Shown: positions 36,210 to 58,057 of the stretch, piece after piece | Layout of the letters: each line of letters starts with the position of its first letter | Numbering within the stretch: position 1 is the first letter of the stretch | Assembly (NCBI RefSeq): GCF_004216555.1 | Contig: NZ_SGWQ01000002.1 | Coordinates: 62,001-126,000, forward strand | Reading direction: 5' to 3' | Length of the DNA stretch: 64,000 bases | Source of the DNA: Herbihabitans rhizosphaerae | GTDB lineage: Bacteria > Actinomycetota > Actinomycetes > Mycobacteriales > Pseudonocardiaceae | Program-made: the position numbers and the translations under genes | Notes under the pieces: model-generated | The model's database searches: none | What the model was told of the DNA's origin: nothing | Seen by the model: the letters and a program-made list of their open reading frames with translations, nothing else

Positions 36210-37896
36210 TCAGCGCGCGACGGCGAGGCGGTAGGCGTCGTCGGTGGTGAGCAGGTCGCGGTGCACGCCTTCGGTGGCGACCGCGCCGTCGTCGAGCACG
36301 ATCACGCGGTCGGCGACGTCCAGCAGTGCCGGGCTCGTGGTGATCACGATGGTGGTGCGGCCGGCTCGAAGCTTCGCCACGCGCTGGGCGATCAGTTGCT
36401 CGGTGACCGCGTCGACCGCTGTGGTCGGATCGTGCAGCACGAGGATGTCGGGCCCGGCGGCGAGGGCGCGGGCGAGGGCCAGCCGTTGGCGCTGGCCGCC
36501 GGAGAGGTTGGCACCGCGATCACGGACGCCGTAGTCGAGACCGTCGCGGTGCAGTGCCACGACGTCGGTCAGCATGGCGGCCTCGACCGCTTCGGGTACC
36601 AGCTTGCTCGTGCCGGACGGGTCGATGTTGGTGCGCAGCGTGCCGGCGAAGACCTCGCTGTGGCTGGGGTTGACCAGCAGTGTCGCGCGCACGCTGTCGA
36701 CGGACAGCTCGGCGATCGCCTGGCCGTTCACTCGGACCACACCGTCGTGGTCGGCCGGCGGCACCTCGACGGCGAGGATCGCGGCCAGTTCGGCGGCGGT
36801 GCGCTGGGAGTGGGCCGCGATCGCGACGAAGGCGCCGGCCGGGACGTCGAACGTCACCTCGCGCAGCGACCCGTGGCGCACGCCGTCCAACTCGAGGCGC
36901 CCGCCCGATGGTGACGGCTGATCTCCCGGCGTCATCACGGGTGGGGCGGCGAGCACCAGCGCCATTCGGTCGGCCGAGGCGCGCGCCATCATCACGTACT
37001 TGGGCATCTCGGAGAACAGCTTGAGCGGCTCCATGATGAACTGCGCCAGCCCGACCGCCATGACGAGTTGGCCGATTGTCATCTGATTGTCGAAGGTCAA
37101 CCAGCCGGCGATCAGTGTCACCGCGGCGGCCAACACGGAGTTGAGGGCGAGCGCGGTGCCGGCGTAGGTGCCGTTGGCCCGCGCGACCGTGATCGCCTGG
37201 CTCTTGGCCTGCGTGCTCATCTTCCGGTAGCCGACGAACGCCGCGTGGCTGCCGCCGAACCCGTGCAGCGGCCGCAGCCCGGCGATCAGGTCGGACACCT
37301 TCGCGCCGGCTCGGGCCACGCGCGCCTGCTGTTCCTTGGTGCTCGACCCGATCCGCCGCGACATCAGGCTCAGCACGGCGAGGATCGCGGCGGTCCCGAA
37401 GATCACCAGTAGGCCGAGCCAGATGCTGGCCATGGCCAGTGCGACCGCCGTGATCAACACCGCGACCAGTGAGCTGACCAGAAGTGGGACCACTTCGATG
37501 ATGTCGGCGGTCTGGTCGGCGTCTTCGGTGGCGATGGTCAGTACCTCGCCCGATTTGAGATCCACGTCCTGCGCGACGGGCTGCAGCCCGCACCCGGCCA
37601 CCCGCACCCGCCACCGGTGCGCCTCGGTCGTGTTGGCCTTCTGCAGGATGCGCATGCCGAACCGCCACGACATCGACACCGTCGTGATCACCGCGGCGAG
37701 CGCGAGAACGGACAGCCCGAGCGAGCCGAGGTTCCCGCCTCGGATCGCGAACTCGACGATGGCACCGAGCACGATGGGCACAGCCGTCTCGGCGGCCTGG
37801 TACATACCCATCAGCACCGTGCCGGCGGCCATCGCGCCTCGGTTACGGCGCAGCGCCAGCCGAAGAATCGCCGAACCTGTGCGGGCGTCGTTCTGA

Positions 37897-37904
<8 letters not shown>
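36210..37904 (-). CDS. ABC half-exporter with degenerate ATP site, signature intact
   Basis: 564 residues: six membrane segments, then an ATPase domain. The signature [15 protein letters not shown] is intact. Walker A is gone: where GxxGxGKST is expected there is AAHSQRTAA. The Walker B Asp is His and the catalytic Glu is Asp ([11 protein letters not shown]). The H-loop His is Thr (VITTSP). It cannot bind ATP normally by itself. The partner at 48787-50574 has the opposite defects. ATG 37904 overlaps the NRPS stop by 8 bases, so it is translated with the NRPS. Most likely exports the siderophore. Confidence 0.93.
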
Positions 37905-48738
<10,834 letters not shown>

Positions 48739-48755
48739 TTCACGACTCCCAAATC

Positions 48756-48774
48756 CCAGGTAAGCCTTACCTAA
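48756..48774 (-). promoter_or_regulatory. Iron box upstream of the NRPS
   Basis: Minus-strand TTAGGTAAGGCTTACCTGG, 15 of 19 positions equal to the IdeR/DmdR consensus TTAGGTTAGGCTAACCTAA. It lies 18 bases before the NRPS start and 13 bases beyond the end of the upstream ABC gene. Confidence 0.85.
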
Positions 48775-50790: not shown

Positions 50791-51855
50791 CTATTTGGCT
50801 GCCTTGACGATCTCGTCGATCGCGTACGGGAGGGACAGGACGGTGCTCTGCGACATCGCCGCGCCCACGGCCGGCTCCTCGCTGTCGAGCACGTAGGACA
50901 CCCGGCCTTCGCGCACCGCCGGCAGGTTGGCGAACAGCGGGAAGTTCTTCAGCGCCTGCTGGTCGGCCTGGTCGCCGATGACGAAGATGCGGTCCACGTT
51001 GATCAGGTCGACGCGCTCGGGCGACAGCGTGGTGTAGAACTTGCCGGCGGCGATCTTGTCGATCTCCGTCACGCCCTTGAAACCGAGGTTGGTGAGGATC
51101 CGGCCGCGCACGTCGGTCGTGGTGAACGGCGCGATCGAGTTCTTGTACCAGGACACGGCGACCGCGGTCTTGCTGGCGAGCTCCGGGTGCGCCTGGCGGG
51201 CGGCGGCGAACTTGTCGTCGATCGCCTTGATCGCCTTCGCGCCCTCGTCCGGCTTGCCCAGCGCCTTCGCGATCTGCAGCGCGTTGTCCTGCCACGGCGC
51301 GCTGAACGGCTCCTTCTCGGCCTTGGTGCGGCCGACCGTCGGAGCGATCTTGGTCAGCCGGTCGTAGGCGGCCTGGTCGATGTCGGAGTACACGGCGACG
51401 ATCAGATCCGGACGCAGCGCGGCGATCTTCTCGTAGTTCGGCGCCGGGTCACCGTTGGTCATGATGACCTCGGGCTTGTTGGTGGCCCAGACGCCCTTCA
51501 CCCACGGCCACTGGGTGTTGATGTCGGGGCTCTGGCCGGGCGGGTTGCTGTACTGGTCGACCATGCCGACGGGCCTGATGCCGTAGCCGAGGATGGCCTG
51601 GTCGTCGGTGTAGCCGAGGGACACGACCCGCTTGGGCGCCTGCTTGATCTCGGTGGTCCCGAACGCGTGCTCGACGGTCGTGGGGAAGGTGCCGGCGGTG
51701 GCGCCGGCGATGCTGAGGTTCTCGGTGTCGGCGGGTGCGCCGCCGGAGCTCTCCGATCCACATCCCGCGAGCAAACCCGCCGTGGCGGCGATGGCGGTGA
51801 GCGCGATACCAGTGCGCTTCCAGGCCGTCGTGACTCTCGTTCGGGAGGACAGCAT
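50791..51855 (-). CDS. Iron-siderophore binding lipoprotein (FecB/FepB type)
   Basis: About 354 residues. Lipoprotein signal with lipobox LLAGCGS (Cys about 31 from ATG 51855). The mature part is a periplasmic-binding-like bilobal fold of the class III (siderophore) type, with [21 protein letters not shown] near the N-lobe. The start with GAGAGGTG upstream is preferred to one 11 codons earlier. Imports ferri-siderophore together with the two permeases and ATPase. Confidence 0.93.
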
Positions 51856-51892
51856 GCGACACCTCTCGTCGTGCGGATCCGAAACCACCCAT

Positions 51893-51911
51893 TTAGGGCA
51901 GGCAAACCATA
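51893..51911 (-). promoter_or_regulatory. Second, weaker iron box upstream of the binding protein
   Basis: TTAGGGCAGGCAAACCATA (plus strand) agrees with 14 of 19 consensus positions. It lies 38 bases before the binding-protein start and 10 bases inside a stronger box, so the promoter may have two binding sites. Confidence 0.45.
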
Positions 51912-51921
51912 CAGACGCTAT

Positions 51922-51940
51922 TAAGGTAAGGCTAGCCTTT
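51922..51940 (-). promoter_or_regulatory. Iron box upstream of the binding-protein unit
   Basis: TAAGGTAAGGCTAGCCTTT (plus strand) matches 14 of 19 positions of the IdeR/DmdR consensus and is symmetric. It overlaps the last codons of the ATPase gene and lies 66 bases before the start of the binding protein, the first gene of the unit binding protein-mbtH-ABC. Confidence 0.75.
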
Positions 51941-52762
51941 CAAGTCGGTGCGAAACGTCACGTGTGTGCGCCCGATGGGCACGATGAGCGGCCGGTCGCT
52001 GACCGGGTCCTCGATCACCCGCGCGCGCAGTCCGAACGCCTCGTGCAGCAGCTCGTCGGTCACCACGTCGCGCGGATGTCCTTGGGCCACAATGGATCCG
52101 GCCTTCATGACGATCAGGTTGTCGCTGTAGCGCACGGCCAGGTTCAGGTCGTGCAACACCATCACCACGGTGCGGCCCGTCTCGTGTAAGTCGTCGATGA
52201 GATCGATCACGTCGATCGCGTGCGCCAGGTCCAGATAGGTCGTCGGCTCGTCGAGCAGCAGCAGGTCGGTGCCCTGCGCGAGCGTCATCGAGATCCACAC
52301 CCGCTGGCGTTGCCCGCCGGACAACGAGTCCACCGAACGGGTGGCCAGGTCGCCGACGCCGGTCATCGCCAAGGCTTTCTGGACCACCTCGGCGTCGTCG
52401 GAGGACCACTGCCGGATCCAGCTCTGGTGCGGGTGGCGGCCCCGGGCCACCAGGTCGGCGACGGTCAGCCCCTCCGGCGCGACCGGGGCCTGCGGCAGCA
52501 GCCCCAGCTTTTTGGCCACGTCCTTGGTCTTGAGCTTGGCGATGTCGCCGCCGTCCAGCACGACCGTGCCGCGCCTCGGCTTGAGTAGCCTGGACAGGGT
52601 CCGCAGCAGCGTGGACTTGCCGCAGCCGTTGGGGCCGATCACCGTGGTGATCACACCCGGCGGGATGCTGACGTCCAGCCCGTCGAGCACGACGGTGTCG
52701 CCGTACCCGACCGTGACGCCGCGCGTCCCCAGTCGGGTGATCTCGCCGTTCTGAACGGTCAT
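51932..52762 (-). CDS. Siderophore ABC transporter ATPase (FecE/FepC type)
   Basis: 276 residues. Walker A GPNGCGKSTLL, signature [11 protein letters not shown], Walker B LLLLDEPTTYLD and the switch His in MVLHDLNLAV are all intact. ATG overlaps the permease stop (ATGA) with GAGGAGGGA upstream. Couples ATP hydrolysis to uptake through the two FecCD permeases. Last gene of the permease unit. Confidence 0.95.
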   Translation of the reverse strand: MTVQNGEITRLGTRGVTVGYGDTVVLDGLDVSIPPGVITTVIGPNGCGKSTLLRTLSRLLKPRRGTVVLDGGDIAKLKTKDVAKKLGLLPQAPVAPEGLTVADLVARGRHPHQSWIRQWSSDDAEVVQKALAMTGVGDLATRSVDSLSGGQRQRVWISMTLAQGTDLLLLDEPTTYLDLAHAIDVIDLIDDLHETGRTVVMVLHDLNLAVRYSDNLIVMKAGSIVAQGHPRDVVTDELLHEAFGLRARVIEDPVSDRPLIVPIGRTHVTFRTDLKG

Positions 52763-53838
52763 GCGTCCCTCCTCAGGTTCGCCCGGACCAGCAGGTAGAC
52801 CAGGAACGGACCGCCGATCATCGCGGTGACGATCCCGACCGGCAGCGAGATCGGCAGGACGGTCCGCGCGACCAGATCGGCACCGAGCAGCAGCAGCGCC
52901 CCGAGTACACCGGCGGCCAGCAGCGGCGGCGTGGGGGAGCGCAGCAGCCGCATGGCGACCTGCGGTGCGATCAGCGCGACGAACGGGATCGGGCCGGCCG
53001 CGCTCACCGCGACGCCGGCCAGCAGCACCGCGCACAGCAGCAGGATCGCCCGGACCAGGGCCAGCCGGATCCCGAGGCCGGACGCGACGTCGTCGCCGAA
53101 GTGCATCGGCTTGAGGTGGAACGCGACCGCGAGCACGACGGTCACCAGCGCGACCGTGCACCACAGCGCGATCCAGACCTCGTGCCAGGACCGCTCCTCC
53201 AGCGAGCCGACCAGCCACACCTGCGCGCGGGCCACATCGCGGATGTCGGCGGTGACCAGCAGCCAGGTGGTGATCGCCTCCATCACGGCGCTGACCGAGA
53301 CGCCGATCAGGATCAGCCGGAACCCGTCGATGCCGCGCCGCCACGCCAGGAAGTACACCAGCAGGCCGGTGCCGAGACCGCCGATCAGGGCCGCCGCCGG
53401 CAGGCCGATCGTGTTGGTGATCGTGCTGGCCGCGCCGCCGGTCACGGTCACCAGGAACACCGCCACCGCGCTCGCGCCCCAGGTGATGCCGAGTACGTCC
53501 GGGCTGGCCAGCGGGTTGCGCGCGATCGACTGCGTCAGCGCGCCCGCGATGCCCAGCGCGAACCCGGTGATCAACCCGACCAGTGCGCGCGGCATCCGCA
53601 GGTCCATGATCACGAACGTGTCGAGCCGGTCGCCCTGGCCGAAGATCGTGCTGATCACCTGGGGGAGACCGATCTGGAAGTCGCCGAGCCCGATCGAGAG
53701 GCAGAACAGCAGGAACGTCGCGGCCAGCAGCAGCACGGAGACCAGCACGCCCCACGGCCGCCAGACCAGCGACAGCCGTCCCACCCGCAGGCCGGGCGGG
53801 ACGTCCGCCGTGGTGTCACGCTCCAGGTCGTCGATCAC
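52759..53838 (-). CDS. FecCD-type siderophore permease 2
   Basis: 359 residues with about ten membrane segments. The family motif GFALGIAGALTQSIARNPLASP, and an EAA-like GPIPFVALIAPQVAMRL loop that contacts the ATPase. GTG start overlaps the stop of permease 1 (GTGA), and its stop overlaps the ATPase start. The N-terminal 30 residues are charged and cytoplasmic. Confidence 0.94.
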   Translation of the reverse strand: MIDDLERDTTADVPPGLRVGRLSLVWRPWGVLVSVLLLAATFLLFCLSIGLGDFQIGLPQVISTIFGQGDRLDTFVIMDLRMPRALVGLITGFALGIAGALTQSIARNPLASPDVLGITWGASAVAVFLVTVTGGAASTITNTIGLPAAALIGGLGTGLLVYFLAWRRGIDGFRLILIGVSVSAVMEAITTWLLVTADIRDVARAQVWLVGSLEERSWHEVWIALWCTVALVTVVLAVAFHLKPMHFGDDVASGLGIRLALVRAILLLCAVLLAGVAVSAAGPIPFVALIAPQVAMRLLRSPTPPLLAAGVLGALLLLGADLVARTVLPISLPVGIVTAMIGGPFLVYLLVRANLRRDA

Positions 53839-54920
53839 GTCCGCTTGAACCTTCCGAGCCACACCAGCGCGGCGAAGAACGGCGCGCCGATCAGCGCCAC
53901 CACGATGCCCGCCTGCAGTTCGTCCGGCCGCGCCACGAGCCGGCCGATCACGTCGCAGACCAGCAGGATCACCGCGCCGAGCAGCCCGGCGTAGGGGACC
54001 AGCCAGCGAAAGTCCGGCCCGGTGCGGTACCGGGCGAGGTGCGCGACCATCAGGCCGAGGAACGTGATCGGGCCGCAGGCCGCGGTCGCGGCACCCGCCA
54101 GCAGCGTGATCGCGAGCATGCCGATGGTCCGGCTCAGCGCGATGTTCGCGCCGAGTGCGCGTGCCACGTCGTCGCCCAGGTTGAGCAGGTTGATCGAGGG
54201 CAGGTTGACCAGCGTCAGGATCAGACCGACGACGACGAACAGCGCGGCGATCCAGATGACGCCCCAGCCGACTCCGGCCACCGAGCCCGCGTTCCACTGC
54301 CGCAGCGCGTCCAGCGACGCCTTGTCGGCCAGCGCGACCGCGGTGGTCATCGCGGCCAGGAAGATCGCGATGCCCTGGCCGGCGAGTACGAGGGTGAGCG
54401 GGTTCCCGGCGCCCCGGCCGAGGCTGGACAGTCCGAACACGACCGTGCCGGCCGCCGCCGCGCCCAGGAACGCGAACCAGACGTACTGCACCGGGTTCTG
54501 GAAGCCGAACAGGAAGATCGCCAGCACCACGGCGAACGAGGCGCCGGCGTTGATGCCGAGCAGGCCGGTGTCGGCGATCGGGTTGCGGGTGTGCCCCTGG
54601 ATCAGCGCGCCGGCGACGCCGAGCGCGATGCCGGCGACGATCGCGAGGACCGTTCTCGGTACGCGCACGGTCTGCACGATCAGCGTGATCTCGTTGGCCG
54701 CCGGGTCGTTGCCCGTATCGGCGAACAGCCCGTGCCACACCTCGGCGAGGCTGAGCCCTCGAGCGCCGACGGCCAGCGACACGGCGGCGGCGACCAGGAT
54801 CGCCGCGGCCAGCACGACGATGCCGACCACTCGGCGGCGGCGCAGGCGGGTGACCTCGGCGGCCTCGGGTCCGGAGTGCACCGGGCCGGGCTGCTCTGTC
54901 ACCACACCCACGTCGGCCAC
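53835..54920 (-). CDS. FecCD-type siderophore permease 1
   Basis: 361 residues with about ten membrane segments. Motif GIALGVAGALIQGHTRNPIAD and the ATPase-contact loop GPITFLGLMVAHLARYRTG. It pairs with permease 2. First gene of this unit; the start is about 85 bases downstream of an iron box. Confidence 0.94.
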   Translation of the reverse strand: MADVGVVTEQPGPVHSGPEAAEVTRLRRRRVVGIVVLAAAILVAAAVSLAVGARGLSLAEVWHGLFADTGNDPAANEITLIVQTVRVPRTVLAIVAGIALGVAGALIQGHTRNPIADTGLLGINAGASFAVVLAIFLFGFQNPVQYVWFAFLGAAAAGTVVFGLSSLGRGAGNPLTLVLAGQGIAIFLAAMTTAVALADKASLDALRQWNAGSVAGVGWGVIWIAALFVVVGLILTLVNLPSINLLNLGDDVARALGANIALSRTIGMLAITLLAGAATAACGPITFLGLMVAHLARYRTGPDFRWLVPYAGLLGAVILLVCDVIGRLVARPDELQAGIVVALIGAPFFAALVWLGRFKRT

Positions 54921-55004: not shown

Positions 55005-55023
55005 TAAGGCTAGGCTTACTTCG
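55005..55023 (-). promoter_or_regulatory. Iron box upstream of the permease unit
   Basis: TAAGGCTAGGCTTACTTCG (plus strand), 13 of 19 consensus positions; the symmetric core is GTAAG/CTTAC. It overlaps the last codons of the acetyltransferase gene and stands about 85 bases before permease 1. Confidence 0.6.
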
Positions 55024-55570
55024 CGCTGGCCAGGGTGCGGCGAGGTGCCGCGACCGCCGCGACGCCCGGCGCGCCGAGCCGCAGCAGCATCCGCGTGTTG
55101 CCCAGCGTGTTGGGCCGCACCGACGGCAGGTCCAGGAACTGCGCGACGCCCTGGTCCGCGGACAGCCGGATCTCCTCGTAGACCTCCTCGGCCACCGGTG
55201 TGCCGTCGATCGTCACGAAGCCGTGCCGCCCGAAGAACTCCGTCTCGAAGGTGAGCACGAAGATCCGCCGGACGCCGAGCCGCCGCGCGGTGTCGATCAG
55301 CTCGCGCACGATCGCGTGCCCGGTGCCCTCGCCGCGCACGCTCGGGTGCACCGCCACCGTGCGGATCTCGGCGAGGTCCTCCCACAGCACGTGCAGCGCG
55401 CCGCACCCGACGATCTCGCCGTCCAGCTCGGCGACCCGGAACTCCTGCACGTGCTCGTACAGCGTGACCAGGTCCTTGCCGAGCAACACCTTTCCGGCGA
55501 ACAGATCGACGAGCGCCTTGATCGGGCGGACGTCGCCCACCCGGGCCCGGCGGATCCGCGGGCGGCTCAC
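55016..55570 (-). CDS. argA: Amino-acid N-acetyltransferase, short ArgA type
   Basis: 184 residues with the GNAT fold. The acetyl-CoA loop is AVHPSVRGEGTGHAIVREL, and the beginning (IRRARVGDVRPIKALVDLFA) and KVLLGKDLVTLYEHVQEF resemble the small N-acetylglutamate synthases of actinobacteria (Rv2747 type). It makes N-acetylglutamate, the first step to ornithine. GTG start overlaps the formyltransferase stop (GTGA), so its translation is coupled to a siderophore enzyme, and it is in that iron-controlled unit. Confidence 0.82.
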   Translation of the reverse strand: MSRPRIRRARVGDVRPIKALVDLFAGKVLLGKDLVTLYEHVQEFRVAELDGEIVGCGALHVLWEDLAEIRTVAVHPSVRGEGTGHAIVRELIDTARRLGVRRIFVLTFETEFFGRHGFVTIDGTPVAEEVYEEIRLSADQGVAQFLDLPSVRPNTLGNTRMLLRLGAPGVAAVAAPRRTLASAK

Positions 55571-56514
55571 GGCCGGTTGGTGAGGTAGCCGCCCATGTTG
55601 GTGAAGTAGTCCTGCGCGGCGAACTCCTGGCCGTCCTCGGTGCGCACCCTGGTGACCAGCAGCGCGTGGTTGCGGCCGCGGCGAGCGTCCGCGCCGGCCA
55701 CGATCGCGACGCCGTCACCCTCCCGGTAGAAGATCCGGCCGGGGGTGCCGCCGTACCGGTTGGCGGACACGTCGGCGGTCACGATCTCCAGCCGCTTGCC
55801 CCGGTGGTAGGTGAACGCGCTGGGGTAGGGCGAGGACTGGGCCCGCACCAGGAGTTCGAGGTCCTCGGCCGGCCAGGTCCAGTCGATCCGGATGTCCTCC
55901 TCGGCGCGCTTGTGGAAGAAGCTGGCCTGGGAGCGGTCCTGCTTGGCCCAGTCGGTCCGGCCGGAGGCGATCTCGGCGAGCCCGTCGACGGTGATCGGGC
56001 CGAACAGTTCGAGCGTCTTGTGGAACAGGTCGGTCGTGGTGTCCTTGGGGCCGACCGGGACCGCGCGCTGCAGCACGACGTCACCCGCGTCGAGTTCGTC
56101 GTTCATGATGTGCGCTGTGACCCCGACCTCCTTCTCGCCGTTGACCAGCGCCCAGATCAGCGGGGAGAAGCCGGCGTACTTGGGCAGCAGCGAGTCGTGC
56201 ACGTTGAGGGTGCCGTGCTTGGGCAGGTCGAAGATCTGCGGCGGGATCCAGGTGCGCCAGTTGGTGGCCACGATGACGTCCGGATCGACCTCTTTCAGCC
56301 TGGTCAGCAGCTCCTCGTCGTCCGGGCGGTTGCGGATCAGCACCTCGACGCCGTGCTCTGTCGCGAGGTCGGCGACCGAGTCGCTCCAGATCTTCTCGTA
56401 GGCGTGGTCGCTCTTGGGGTGGGTGACGACGAGAGCGACCTCGTGCTCGGATTCCAACAGAGCCCGCAGGGTGCGGTGACCCCAGGTCTGGTAACCGAAC
56501 ATCACGACCCGCAT
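55567..56514 (-). CDS. cchA: N5-hydroxyornithine formyltransferase
   Basis: 315 residues, methionyl-tRNA-formyltransferase fold. The catalytic NVHDSLLPKYAGFSPLIWAL segment carries the Asn-His-Asp set, and a C-terminal domain follows. It transfers a formyl group from 10-formyl-tetrahydrofolate to N5-hydroxyornithine, the building block read by modules 1 and (probably) reused at the chain end. Translationally coupled to argA. An iron box lies 42 bases upstream. Confidence 0.93.
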   Translation of the reverse strand: MRVVMFGYQTWGHRTLRALLESEHEVALVVTHPKSDHAYEKIWSDSVADLATEHGVEVLIRNRPDDEELLTRLKEVDPDVIVATNWRTWIPPQIFDLPKHGTLNVHDSLLPKYAGFSPLIWALVNGEKEVGVTAHIMNDELDAGDVVLQRAVPVGPKDTTTDLFHKTLELFGPITVDGLAEIASGRTDWAKQDRSQASFFHKRAEEDIRIDWTWPAEDLELLVRAQSSPYPSAFTYHRGKRLEIVTADVSANRYGGTPGRIFYREGDGVAIVAGADARRGRNHALLVTRVRTEDGQEFAAQDYFTNMGGYLTNRP

Positions 56515-56555: not shown

Positions 56556-56574
56556 TCAAGCAAGCCTTACCTAA
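56556..56574 (-). promoter_or_regulatory. Iron box upstream of the formyltransferase unit
   Basis: Minus-strand TTAGGTAAGGCTTGCTTGA, 14 of 19 consensus positions, 42 bases before the formyltransferase start. It is one of two boxes in the divergent region between the formyltransferase and monooxygenase. Confidence 0.75.
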
Positions 56575-56650: not shown

Positions 56651-56669
56651 TTAGGCAAGGCTGCCCTAA
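56651..56669 (+). promoter_or_regulatory. Iron box upstream of the monooxygenase
   Basis: TTAGGCAAGGCTGCCCTAA, 15 of 19 consensus positions with perfect outer arms (TTAGG/CCTAA). It stands 38 bases before the monooxygenase start. Confidence 0.82.
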
Positions 56670-56707: not shown

Positions 56708-58057
56708 ATGACCGAGGTGTTCGACCGCGACGACGTACCCGTGTACGACATGGTGGGCGTCGGTTTCGGACCGTCGAACCTGGCCCTCGCGATCGCGCTG
56801 ACCGAGCGCAACGCGAGTGCGGAAAATACCGTGACCGCGCATTTCCTGGAGCGTCAGGCCGCATTCGGCTGGCACCGGGGAATGCTGATCGACGACGCGA
56901 CGATGCAGGTGTCCTTTCTCAAGGACCTGGTGACGTTGCGCGATCCGGCCAGCCGATTCAGCTTCCTGTGCTATTTGCAGGCGCACGGCCGGCTCGTCGA
57001 CTTCGTGAACCACAAGAGCCTGTTCCCGCTGCGCGTGGAGTTCCACGACTATCTGGAATGGGCCGCCGCGCAGGTGGACGATCTCGTGGCCTACGAGCAC
57101 GAGGTGGTCGGCGTCGAGCCGGTCCGCCGCGACGGCGTGGTGGAGATGTTCGACGTGCACGCGCGTGCCGCCGGCGCGACGGAGGTCTACCGTGCGCGGA
57201 ATCTGGTGATCGGCACCGGGCTGCGGCCGATGCTCCCGGAGGGCGTGCGGTCCTCGGATGTGGTGTGGCACAACAGTGATCTGCTCACCAACGCCGAGAA
57301 GCTGACCGGTACCGAGCCGTCCCGGTTCATCGTGGTGGGCGCCGGTCAGAGTGCCGCCGAGGCGGTCGCGTACCTGCACCGGACGTTCCCCACGGCCGAC
57401 GTGTGCGGGGTGTTCGCGCGGTACGGGTACAGCCCGGCCGACGACAGCCCGTTCGCGAACCGGATATTCGACCCGGGCGCGGTCGACGATTTCTACTCCT
57501 CGCCCGAGGAATTCAAGCAGCGCCTGGTCGGCTATCACGCCAACACGAACTATTCGGTGGTCGACGCCGATCTGATCGAGGAATTGTACCGGCGCGTCTA
57601 TCAGGAGAAGGTGCTCGGAATCGAGCGGCTGCGGCTGTACAACACCTCGCGGCTGGCCGATTTGGCCGAGGTCGACGGCGGTGTGCGCGGGGTAATCGAG
57701 TCGCTGGTCACCGGCGAGCGCCTCGACGTGACCGCCGACGCCGTCGTGTACGCCACCGGCTACTCCCCGGCCGACCCGCTGCCCGTGCTCGGCGACCTCG
57801 GTGAGCTGTGCCTGCGCGACGACGCGGACCGGCTGCGGGTGGACCGCGACTACCGGGTGCGGACCGCGCCGGAACTCGGCGCCGGCGTGTACCTGCAGGG
57901 CGGCACCGAGCACACGCACGGGATCACCTCGTCGCTGCTGTCCAACGTGGCGGTGCGCGCCGCGGAGATTCTCGACTCGATCACCGATTCGGTCGCGGAC
58001 TCGGCCGCAGAACGGCCGGTCACCATTCCCGCGATGGTCAGCGCGGCACGCGGCTAG
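56708..58057 (+). CDS. cchB: L-ornithine N5-monooxygenase
   Basis: 449 residues. FAD motif GVGFGPSNLALAIAL at the N-terminus and NADPH motif VVGAGQSAAEAVA in the middle, the plan of SidA/PvdA/CchB enzymes. The substrate region KDLVTLRDPAS and the C-terminal GTEHTHGITSSLLSNVAVR are also typical. It hydroxylates ornithine N5, committing it to siderophore. ATG 56708 with GAGGGGAC upstream. Divergent from the formyltransferase. Confidence 0.95.
   Translation: MTEVFDRDDVPVYDMVGVGFGPSNLALAIALTERNASAENTVTAHFLERQAAFGWHRGMLIDDATMQVSFLKDLVTLRDPASRFSFLCYLQAHGRLVDFVNHKSLFPLRVEFHDYLEWAAAQVDDLVAYEHEVVGVEPVRRDGVVEMFDVHARAAGATEVYRARNLVIGTGLRPMLPEGVRSSDVVWHNSDLLTNAEKLTGTEPSRFIVVGAGQSAAEAVAYLHRTFPTADVCGVFARYGYSPADDSPFANRIFDPGAVDDFYSSPEEFKQRLVGYHANTNYSVVDADLIEELYRRVYQEKVLGIERLRLYNTSRLADLAEVDGGVRGVIESLVTGERLDVTADAVVYATGYSPADPLPVLGDLGELCLRDDADRLRVDRDYRVRTAPELGAGVYLQGGTEHTHGITSSLLSNVAVRAAEILDSITDSVADSAAERPVTIPAMVSAARG

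Follow-up and report, generated by a model that had tools for sequence, protein, structure and literature searches.

A putative second short N-acetylglutamate synthase gene in a predicted coelichelin-type siderophore cluster of Herbihabitans rhizosphaerae

The window analysed here is the whole 64,000-nucleotide stretch of Herbihabitans rhizosphaerae DNA, in which an argA-type gene lies among siderophore genes. N-acetylglutamate is the entry to ornithine, and the locus raises the question of whether this gene encodes a working synthase tied to siderophore production, an enzyme with another substrate, or simply a spare copy. An earlier note on this DNA, made from the sequence alone, had described an ArgA-type gene coupled to a siderophore formyltransferase gene by a GTGA stop-start overlap, and had suggested that the two are made together under iron control and provide extra precursor when iron is low.

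The argA–formyltransferase pair and its predicted enzyme

The pair was confirmed as described, with both open reading frames on the minus strand and with matches to the corresponding family models:

55016 to 55570, minus strand: second argA, a short single-domain N-acetylglutamate synthase (S-NAGS, or Rv2747 type), 184 aa, GTG start
55567 to 56514, minus strand: siderophore-type formyltransferase (cchA-like), 315 aa, Pfam domains PF00551 (Formyl_trans_N) and PF02911 (Formyl_trans_C)

The overlap was likewise confirmed: positions 55567–55570 read TCAC on the plus strand, that is, GTGA on the coding strand, where the TGA of the formyltransferase gene overlaps the GTG of argA. This GTG, at 55570, is the first start in the argA frame, which runs for 232 codons from stop to stop without interruption.

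The window ArgA matches the NCBIfam model NF005921 (amino-acid N-acetyltransferase) with 263.7 bits, compared with a curated cut-off of 180, and all other NCBIfam models score under their own cut-offs on it. Pfam finds GNAT-type domains only, without an amino-acid-kinase domain, which is the domain composition of an S-NAGS. The best PDB matches by phmmer are the ArgA chains 5yo2/6add and 5yge (E ~6e-63, residues 3–165), which we take to be structures of the Mycobacterium tuberculosis Rv2747 enzyme. The CoA motif (R/Q)xxGx(G/A), as defined in an excerpt of PMC4490483, can be read in the window ArgA as RGEGTG at residue 79. The window ArgA resembles Rv2747 (an S-NAGS; 5yo2, 5yge, 6add) in having a single acetyltransferase domain, the same family model and the acetyl-CoA motif, and differs from it in lying in a siderophore cluster and in carrying an arginine, R152, in place of a fixed lysine.

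Conservation was assessed in an alignment of 121 rows, comprising the window ArgA and 120 other copies, where columns with at least 95% conservation were regarded as strongly conserved. The window ArgA retains 72 of the 73 columns conserved at this level among the 120 other copies. The sole exception is R152, compared with lysine in 120 of 120 others. Among the positions inspected, F24, T83, L136 and R152 of the window ArgA are absent from all relatives examined, and position 45 is an arginine (tryptophan in 111 of the 120 copies, arginine in four others). Seven residues of the window ArgA are common to at most one other row, compared with six for the housekeeping copy of the same genome and a median of two. 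The retention of 72 of the 73 conserved positions makes it very probable that the enzyme is still active as an N-acetylglutamate synthase, making N-acetylglutamate or N-acetylglutamine. The residue pattern as a whole speaks for a functional enzyme of this type, with room for altered regulation or affinity.

Known siderophore N5-acyltransferases belong to other families, and this counts against a different scenario, which we consider quite unlikely, where the protein has been repurposed to acetylate the alpha-amine of ornithine, hydroxyornithine, formyl-hydroxyornithine or glutamine and so to yield an acetylated siderophore unit. The position of argA directly after the formyltransferase gene would suit such a role, as would the four family-unusual residues, one of which (R152) is in the C-terminal loop. 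The M. tuberculosis relative is moreover a poor enzyme on glutamate, with a very high Km according to an excerpt of PMC4490483, and the pocket may be loose. Against this, nearly all of the fixed residues are retained, and the number of rare residues is close to that of the genome's own housekeeping copy. In a predicted model of the window ArgA (mean pLDDT 73.6), residues 28–38 and 146–155, the latter including R152, have pLDDT below 50, and with the 146–155 loop at such low confidence R152 cannot be placed in the active site.

The siderophore cluster and its predicted iron boxes

The genes around the pair are as follows:

36210 to 37952, minus strand: second ABC exporter (PF00664 and PF00005)
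37897 to 48738, minus strand: three-module NRPS, coelichelin (CchH) type, from Pfam domains and motif-read specificity residues
48787 to 50631, minus strand: ABC exporter (PF00664 and PF00005)
50791 to 51888, minus strand: siderophore-binding protein (PF01497)
51932 to 52756, minus strand: FecE-type ATPase (PF00005)
52759 to 53811, minus strand: FecCD-type permease 2 (PF01032)
53835 to 54920, minus strand: FecCD-type ferric-siderophore permease 1 (PF01032)
56708 to 58057, plus strand: L-ornithine N5-monooxygenase (cchB-like; PF13434, E 3e-108)

The following components of a coelichelin-type gene set are present: formyltransferase, ornithine monooxygenase, FecCD and FecE proteins with a binding protein, exporter and NRPS. 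The NRPS contains three AMP-binding (adenylation), four condensation-type and three carrier stretches, and the specificity residues read by motif are DINYWGGIGK, DFWNIGMVHK and DMENLGLINK. We take these to be the codes of coelichelin synthetase, for ornithine-derived, Thr and ornithine-derived units, respectively. With the residue names assigned from general knowledge in this way, the NRPS would use ornithine-derived units in two of its three modules, and we file the cluster as coelichelin-type, as predicted from its genes. A text search of the literature for the two ornithine-type codes gave no match. The NRPS is bracketed by two exporters on the same strand, and the exporter frame at 36210–37952 overlaps the end of the NRPS by 56 bases, its start having probably been called too early.

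The cch cluster of Streptomyces coelicolor also includes uptake and export genes, as does the window cluster, and we know of no argA in it. The two clusters share an ornithine formyltransferase, an ornithine monooxygenase and a three-module NRPS. In an excerpt of PMC9854754, cch is described as using formylated and hydroxylated ornithine and an NRPS of three modules, the first two of which epimerise, and as being under iron control by DmdR1/DmdR2.

An amidohydrolase gene (PF07969; 58067–59647, plus strand) lies directly 3' of the ornithine monooxygenase gene in the window. A similar-looking gene follows the monooxygenase in locus L161 and stands beside the formyltransferase in locus L157. The amidohydrolase may be a conserved partner of this siderophore type.

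The whole 64-kb window was scanned with a 19-base sequence that we take to be the IdeR/DmdR consensus, requiring at least 13 matching bases. Boxes were found at six places:

48756 to 48774, minus strand: upstream of the NRPS, 15/19 consensus bases
51893 to 51940, no strand assigned: two boxes (51893–51911 and 51922–51940) upstream of the binding-protein gene, 14/19 each
55005 to 55023, plus strand: overlapping the argA stop codon, upstream of the FecCD genes, 13/19
56556 to 56574, minus strand: before the formyltransferase–argA pair, upstream of the formyltransferase start, 14/19
56651 to 56669, plus strand: before the ornithine monooxygenase, 15/19

All six predicted boxes are at gene starts of the siderophore cluster, between 48756 and 56669, and the remainder of the window has none. 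The random expectation, from 20 dinucleotide-matched draws, is a mean of 0.2 matches per whole window, and the background in 80 named argA loci is 16 boxes in 1,417,249 bases, or 0.72 per 64 kb. The formyltransferase promoter carries an iron box in all eight relatives that were fetched and read. Since a separate box, at 55005, overlaps the stop codon of argA ahead of the permease genes, the formyltransferase gene and argA seem to form a unit of two genes. The earlier suggestion of iron control thus gains a predicted box ahead of the pair, at 56556–56574, while co-transcription of the two genes and their response to iron are what this arrangement would lead one to expect.

Copies of argA in the genome and among relatives

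The genome (6.63 Mb in 25 contigs, 98.57% complete) contains two members of NF005921 over the cut-off, one at C8:102345-102839 (269.6 bits) and the window copy (264.1 bits in the same search). The C8 gene is intact and is surrounded by FtsK-like, RimO-like, PgsA-like, ClgR-like and PspA-like genes, as labelled from translated frames. These ftsK/rimO/pgsA/clgR/pspA surroundings presumably correspond to the neighbourhood of Rv2747, which we take to be a housekeeping gene in the ftsK–pgsA neighbourhood of M. tuberculosis, the same neighbourhood as seen here in relatives. The C8 copy occupies this housekeeping place; the window copy does not. We surveyed 80 named loci, retained from 559 with a gene for a relative. 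At least one of the housekeeping markers is beside argA in 77 of them, and a formyltransferase or ornithine monooxygenase is near argA in none of the 80, some of which are short. ArgJ is encoded at one place in the genome, within the arg operon on contig C18. There are four amino-acid-kinase places, one of them in the same operon, and a single argB. The earlier note had treated its reading as refuted if the window gene were the only argA and had called for a search for a separate housekeeping argA or argJ; the search returned the C8 gene, full-length and in the housekeeping place, together with the one argJ, which rules out the window copy as the only argA of the genome. A contig artefact is likewise ruled out, the window copy being flanked on either side by siderophore genes, well within a contig of 816 kb.

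The presence of two full-length family members would also allow the window copy to replace the housekeeping argA, either during iron stress or for arginine synthesis as a whole, with no special siderophore role. We regard this as very unlikely: the housekeeping gene is intact, sits in its conserved place and scores slightly higher than the window copy.

A dispersed second argA is rare: no other was confirmed among about 1,060 genomes searched. The family, class and order samples overlap (genome handles run to G1060); the first-look searches scored up to eight candidates per genome, and all candidates were scored when copy placement was checked in the multi-copy genomes. In the family sample 389 of 390 genomes have the enzyme, with two copies in the window's genome and 20 others; 18 of the 22 genomes of group g35 and both genomes of g37 are two-copy genomes. 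In all 20 other multi-copy family genomes the argA copies are in tandem, within about 200 bases of each other. The enzyme is found in 296 of 394 genomes of the class sample, where two copies occur only in the window's genome and in the fragmented genome G443, and in 287 of 397 genomes of the order sample, where the two-copy genomes are the window's and five of the tandem ones. The tandem pairs of Saccharopolyspora-type genomes are in the housekeeping place (L017, L019, L023, L026, L040; L095, L108). They resemble the present case in having a second ArgA copy in the same family of genomes, but unlike the window copy they are mutually adjacent in the housekeeping place, with no siderophore genes beside them. 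The two argA-like copies of G443 (C58:37-528 and C5:139-639) are both at contig ends and could reflect either contamination or a true second copy.

Two candidate plasmid-borne parallels were rejected: a Tsukamurella 'plasmid' match has housekeeping neighbours, and in an annotated Arthrobacter match the displayed stretch is free of siderophore genes. Another Arthrobacter record is unannotated.

Relatives of the formyltransferase (E<=1e-90) are common, being found in 265 of 390 family genomes, and argA is within 1.5 kb of the formyltransferase in none of the 29 best other loci. In loci L160 and L161 the formyltransferase and monooxygenase genes are divergent as in the window, with no argA, and the argA insertion looks particular to the window's lineage. 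The formyltransferases of L157 and L158 are 86% and 83% identical to that of the window, and iron boxes precede both; neither locus has a window-like ornithine monooxygenase within ~9 kb on either side of the formyltransferase gene.

The origin of the copy was addressed with a tree of 115 rows (six identical rows of the 121 were dropped). The genome's own housekeeping copy groups with Actinokineospora-type copies (98/88, starred). The window copy has a long branch and, with moderate support, falls next to one of the two Saccharopolyspora copy sets (96/77, not starred). In a topology test on 55 chosen rows, forcing the window copy together with the genome's own copy was not rejected (AU p = 0.10), nor was forcing it together with the Actinokineospora group (AU p = 0.15). 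As the AU test rejects neither union, transfer within the family and an old duplication are both possible origins.

Proposed role in ornithine synthesis

These results lead us to propose that the window argA is probably a second, functional S-NAGS that was recruited to a coelichelin-type cluster for iron-linked priming of ornithine synthesis. In iron shortage the box at 56556–56574 would be freed of the IdeR/DmdR repressor, and the formyltransferase and argA genes would then be transcribed and translated together. ArgA would acetylate glutamate (or glutamine) with acetyl-CoA, and the larger N-acetylglutamate pool would prime ornithine synthesis through the one ArgB-C-D-J pathway of the chromosome. 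The monooxygenase and formyltransferase would then convert the ornithine to hydroxamate building blocks. The iron-dependent expression, the catalytic activity and the effect on ornithine are steps that we infer from the genes. As described in an excerpt of PMC1382215, S. coelicolor has a monofunctional ornithine acetyltransferase, and Mycobacterium and Streptomyces seem to depend on the short NAGS.

The extent of the benefit depends on ArgJ. Since ArgJ regenerates N-acetylglutamate from acetylornithine and glutamate, an extra synthase would prime the pathway and would not supply it mole for mole, and it may change ornithine output little. The idea of extra precursor supply in the earlier note is in keeping with an ArgA in an ornithine-using cluster, but with a single ArgJ it holds for priming only and not for supply in proportion to synthase activity.

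The small theoretical effect on ornithine under ArgJ recycling would also fit a scenario that we consider unlikely, where a spare argA came to lie between the formyltransferase and permease genes and is transcribed with little benefit to siderophore production. The arrangement is a singleton in all genome samples, and relatives manage the formyltransferase without argA. On the other hand, the frame is intact, the 72 conserved positions have been kept despite many substitutions elsewhere in the protein, and the pair combines an exact GTGA coupling with an iron box ahead of it; from these features, selection seems to have kept a working enzyme. Recruitment for priming, our preferred reading, has its own counterpoints in the four residues seen in no relative and in the single occurrence of the arrangement: as it recurs in no other genome searched, independent recurrence lends the proposed functional link no support.

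The earlier note had also raised possible freedom from arginine feedback. Nothing in the sequence supports this suggestion, which amounts to a guess. The M. tuberculosis enzyme is reportedly inhibited by arginine even though it is of the short type, so that the absence of the amino-acid-kinase domain proves nothing about feedback. It is conceivable, if doubtful, that a recruited S-NAGS with an altered C-terminal loop (S150, R152) escapes arginine and that the cluster would in this way set its own ornithine flux at low iron. A tie between ornithine synthesis and siderophore output is on record for Aspergillus fumigatus, where loss of argEF lowers siderophores and the data point to arginine feedback on ornithine synthesis (excerpt of PMC3688985).

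A precedent for the logic of such a recruitment is given by the clavulanic acid cluster, which contains the ornithine acetyltransferase gene oat2 (excerpt of PMC6382702). Like the window argA, oat1 and oat2 of clavulanic acid clusters are arginine-pathway acetyl-transfer genes inside a specialised-metabolite cluster; unlike it, they are of the ArgJ type and not NAGS, and the product is of the beta-lactam type and not a siderophore. The parts of the window locus are all of known kinds, and it is their combination that is unusual: a hydroxamate siderophore cluster that contains an S-NAGS paralogue behind a predicted iron box. In the open-licence literature, as judged by title and the start of the abstract, we found no description of a NAGS in a siderophore cluster.

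If the proposed role is correct, a siderophore operon contains an iron-controlled duplicate of the first step of a central amino-acid pathway. The locus would then allow one to ask cleanly, in a natural setting, whether siderophore output is limited by precursor entry and whether feedback-free copies of primary enzymes evolve in clusters. The presence of two argA copies in one cell makes a direct comparison of their arginine sensitivity possible, and the window argA would be a gene at hand for engineering higher ornithine levels in producers of hydroxamates.
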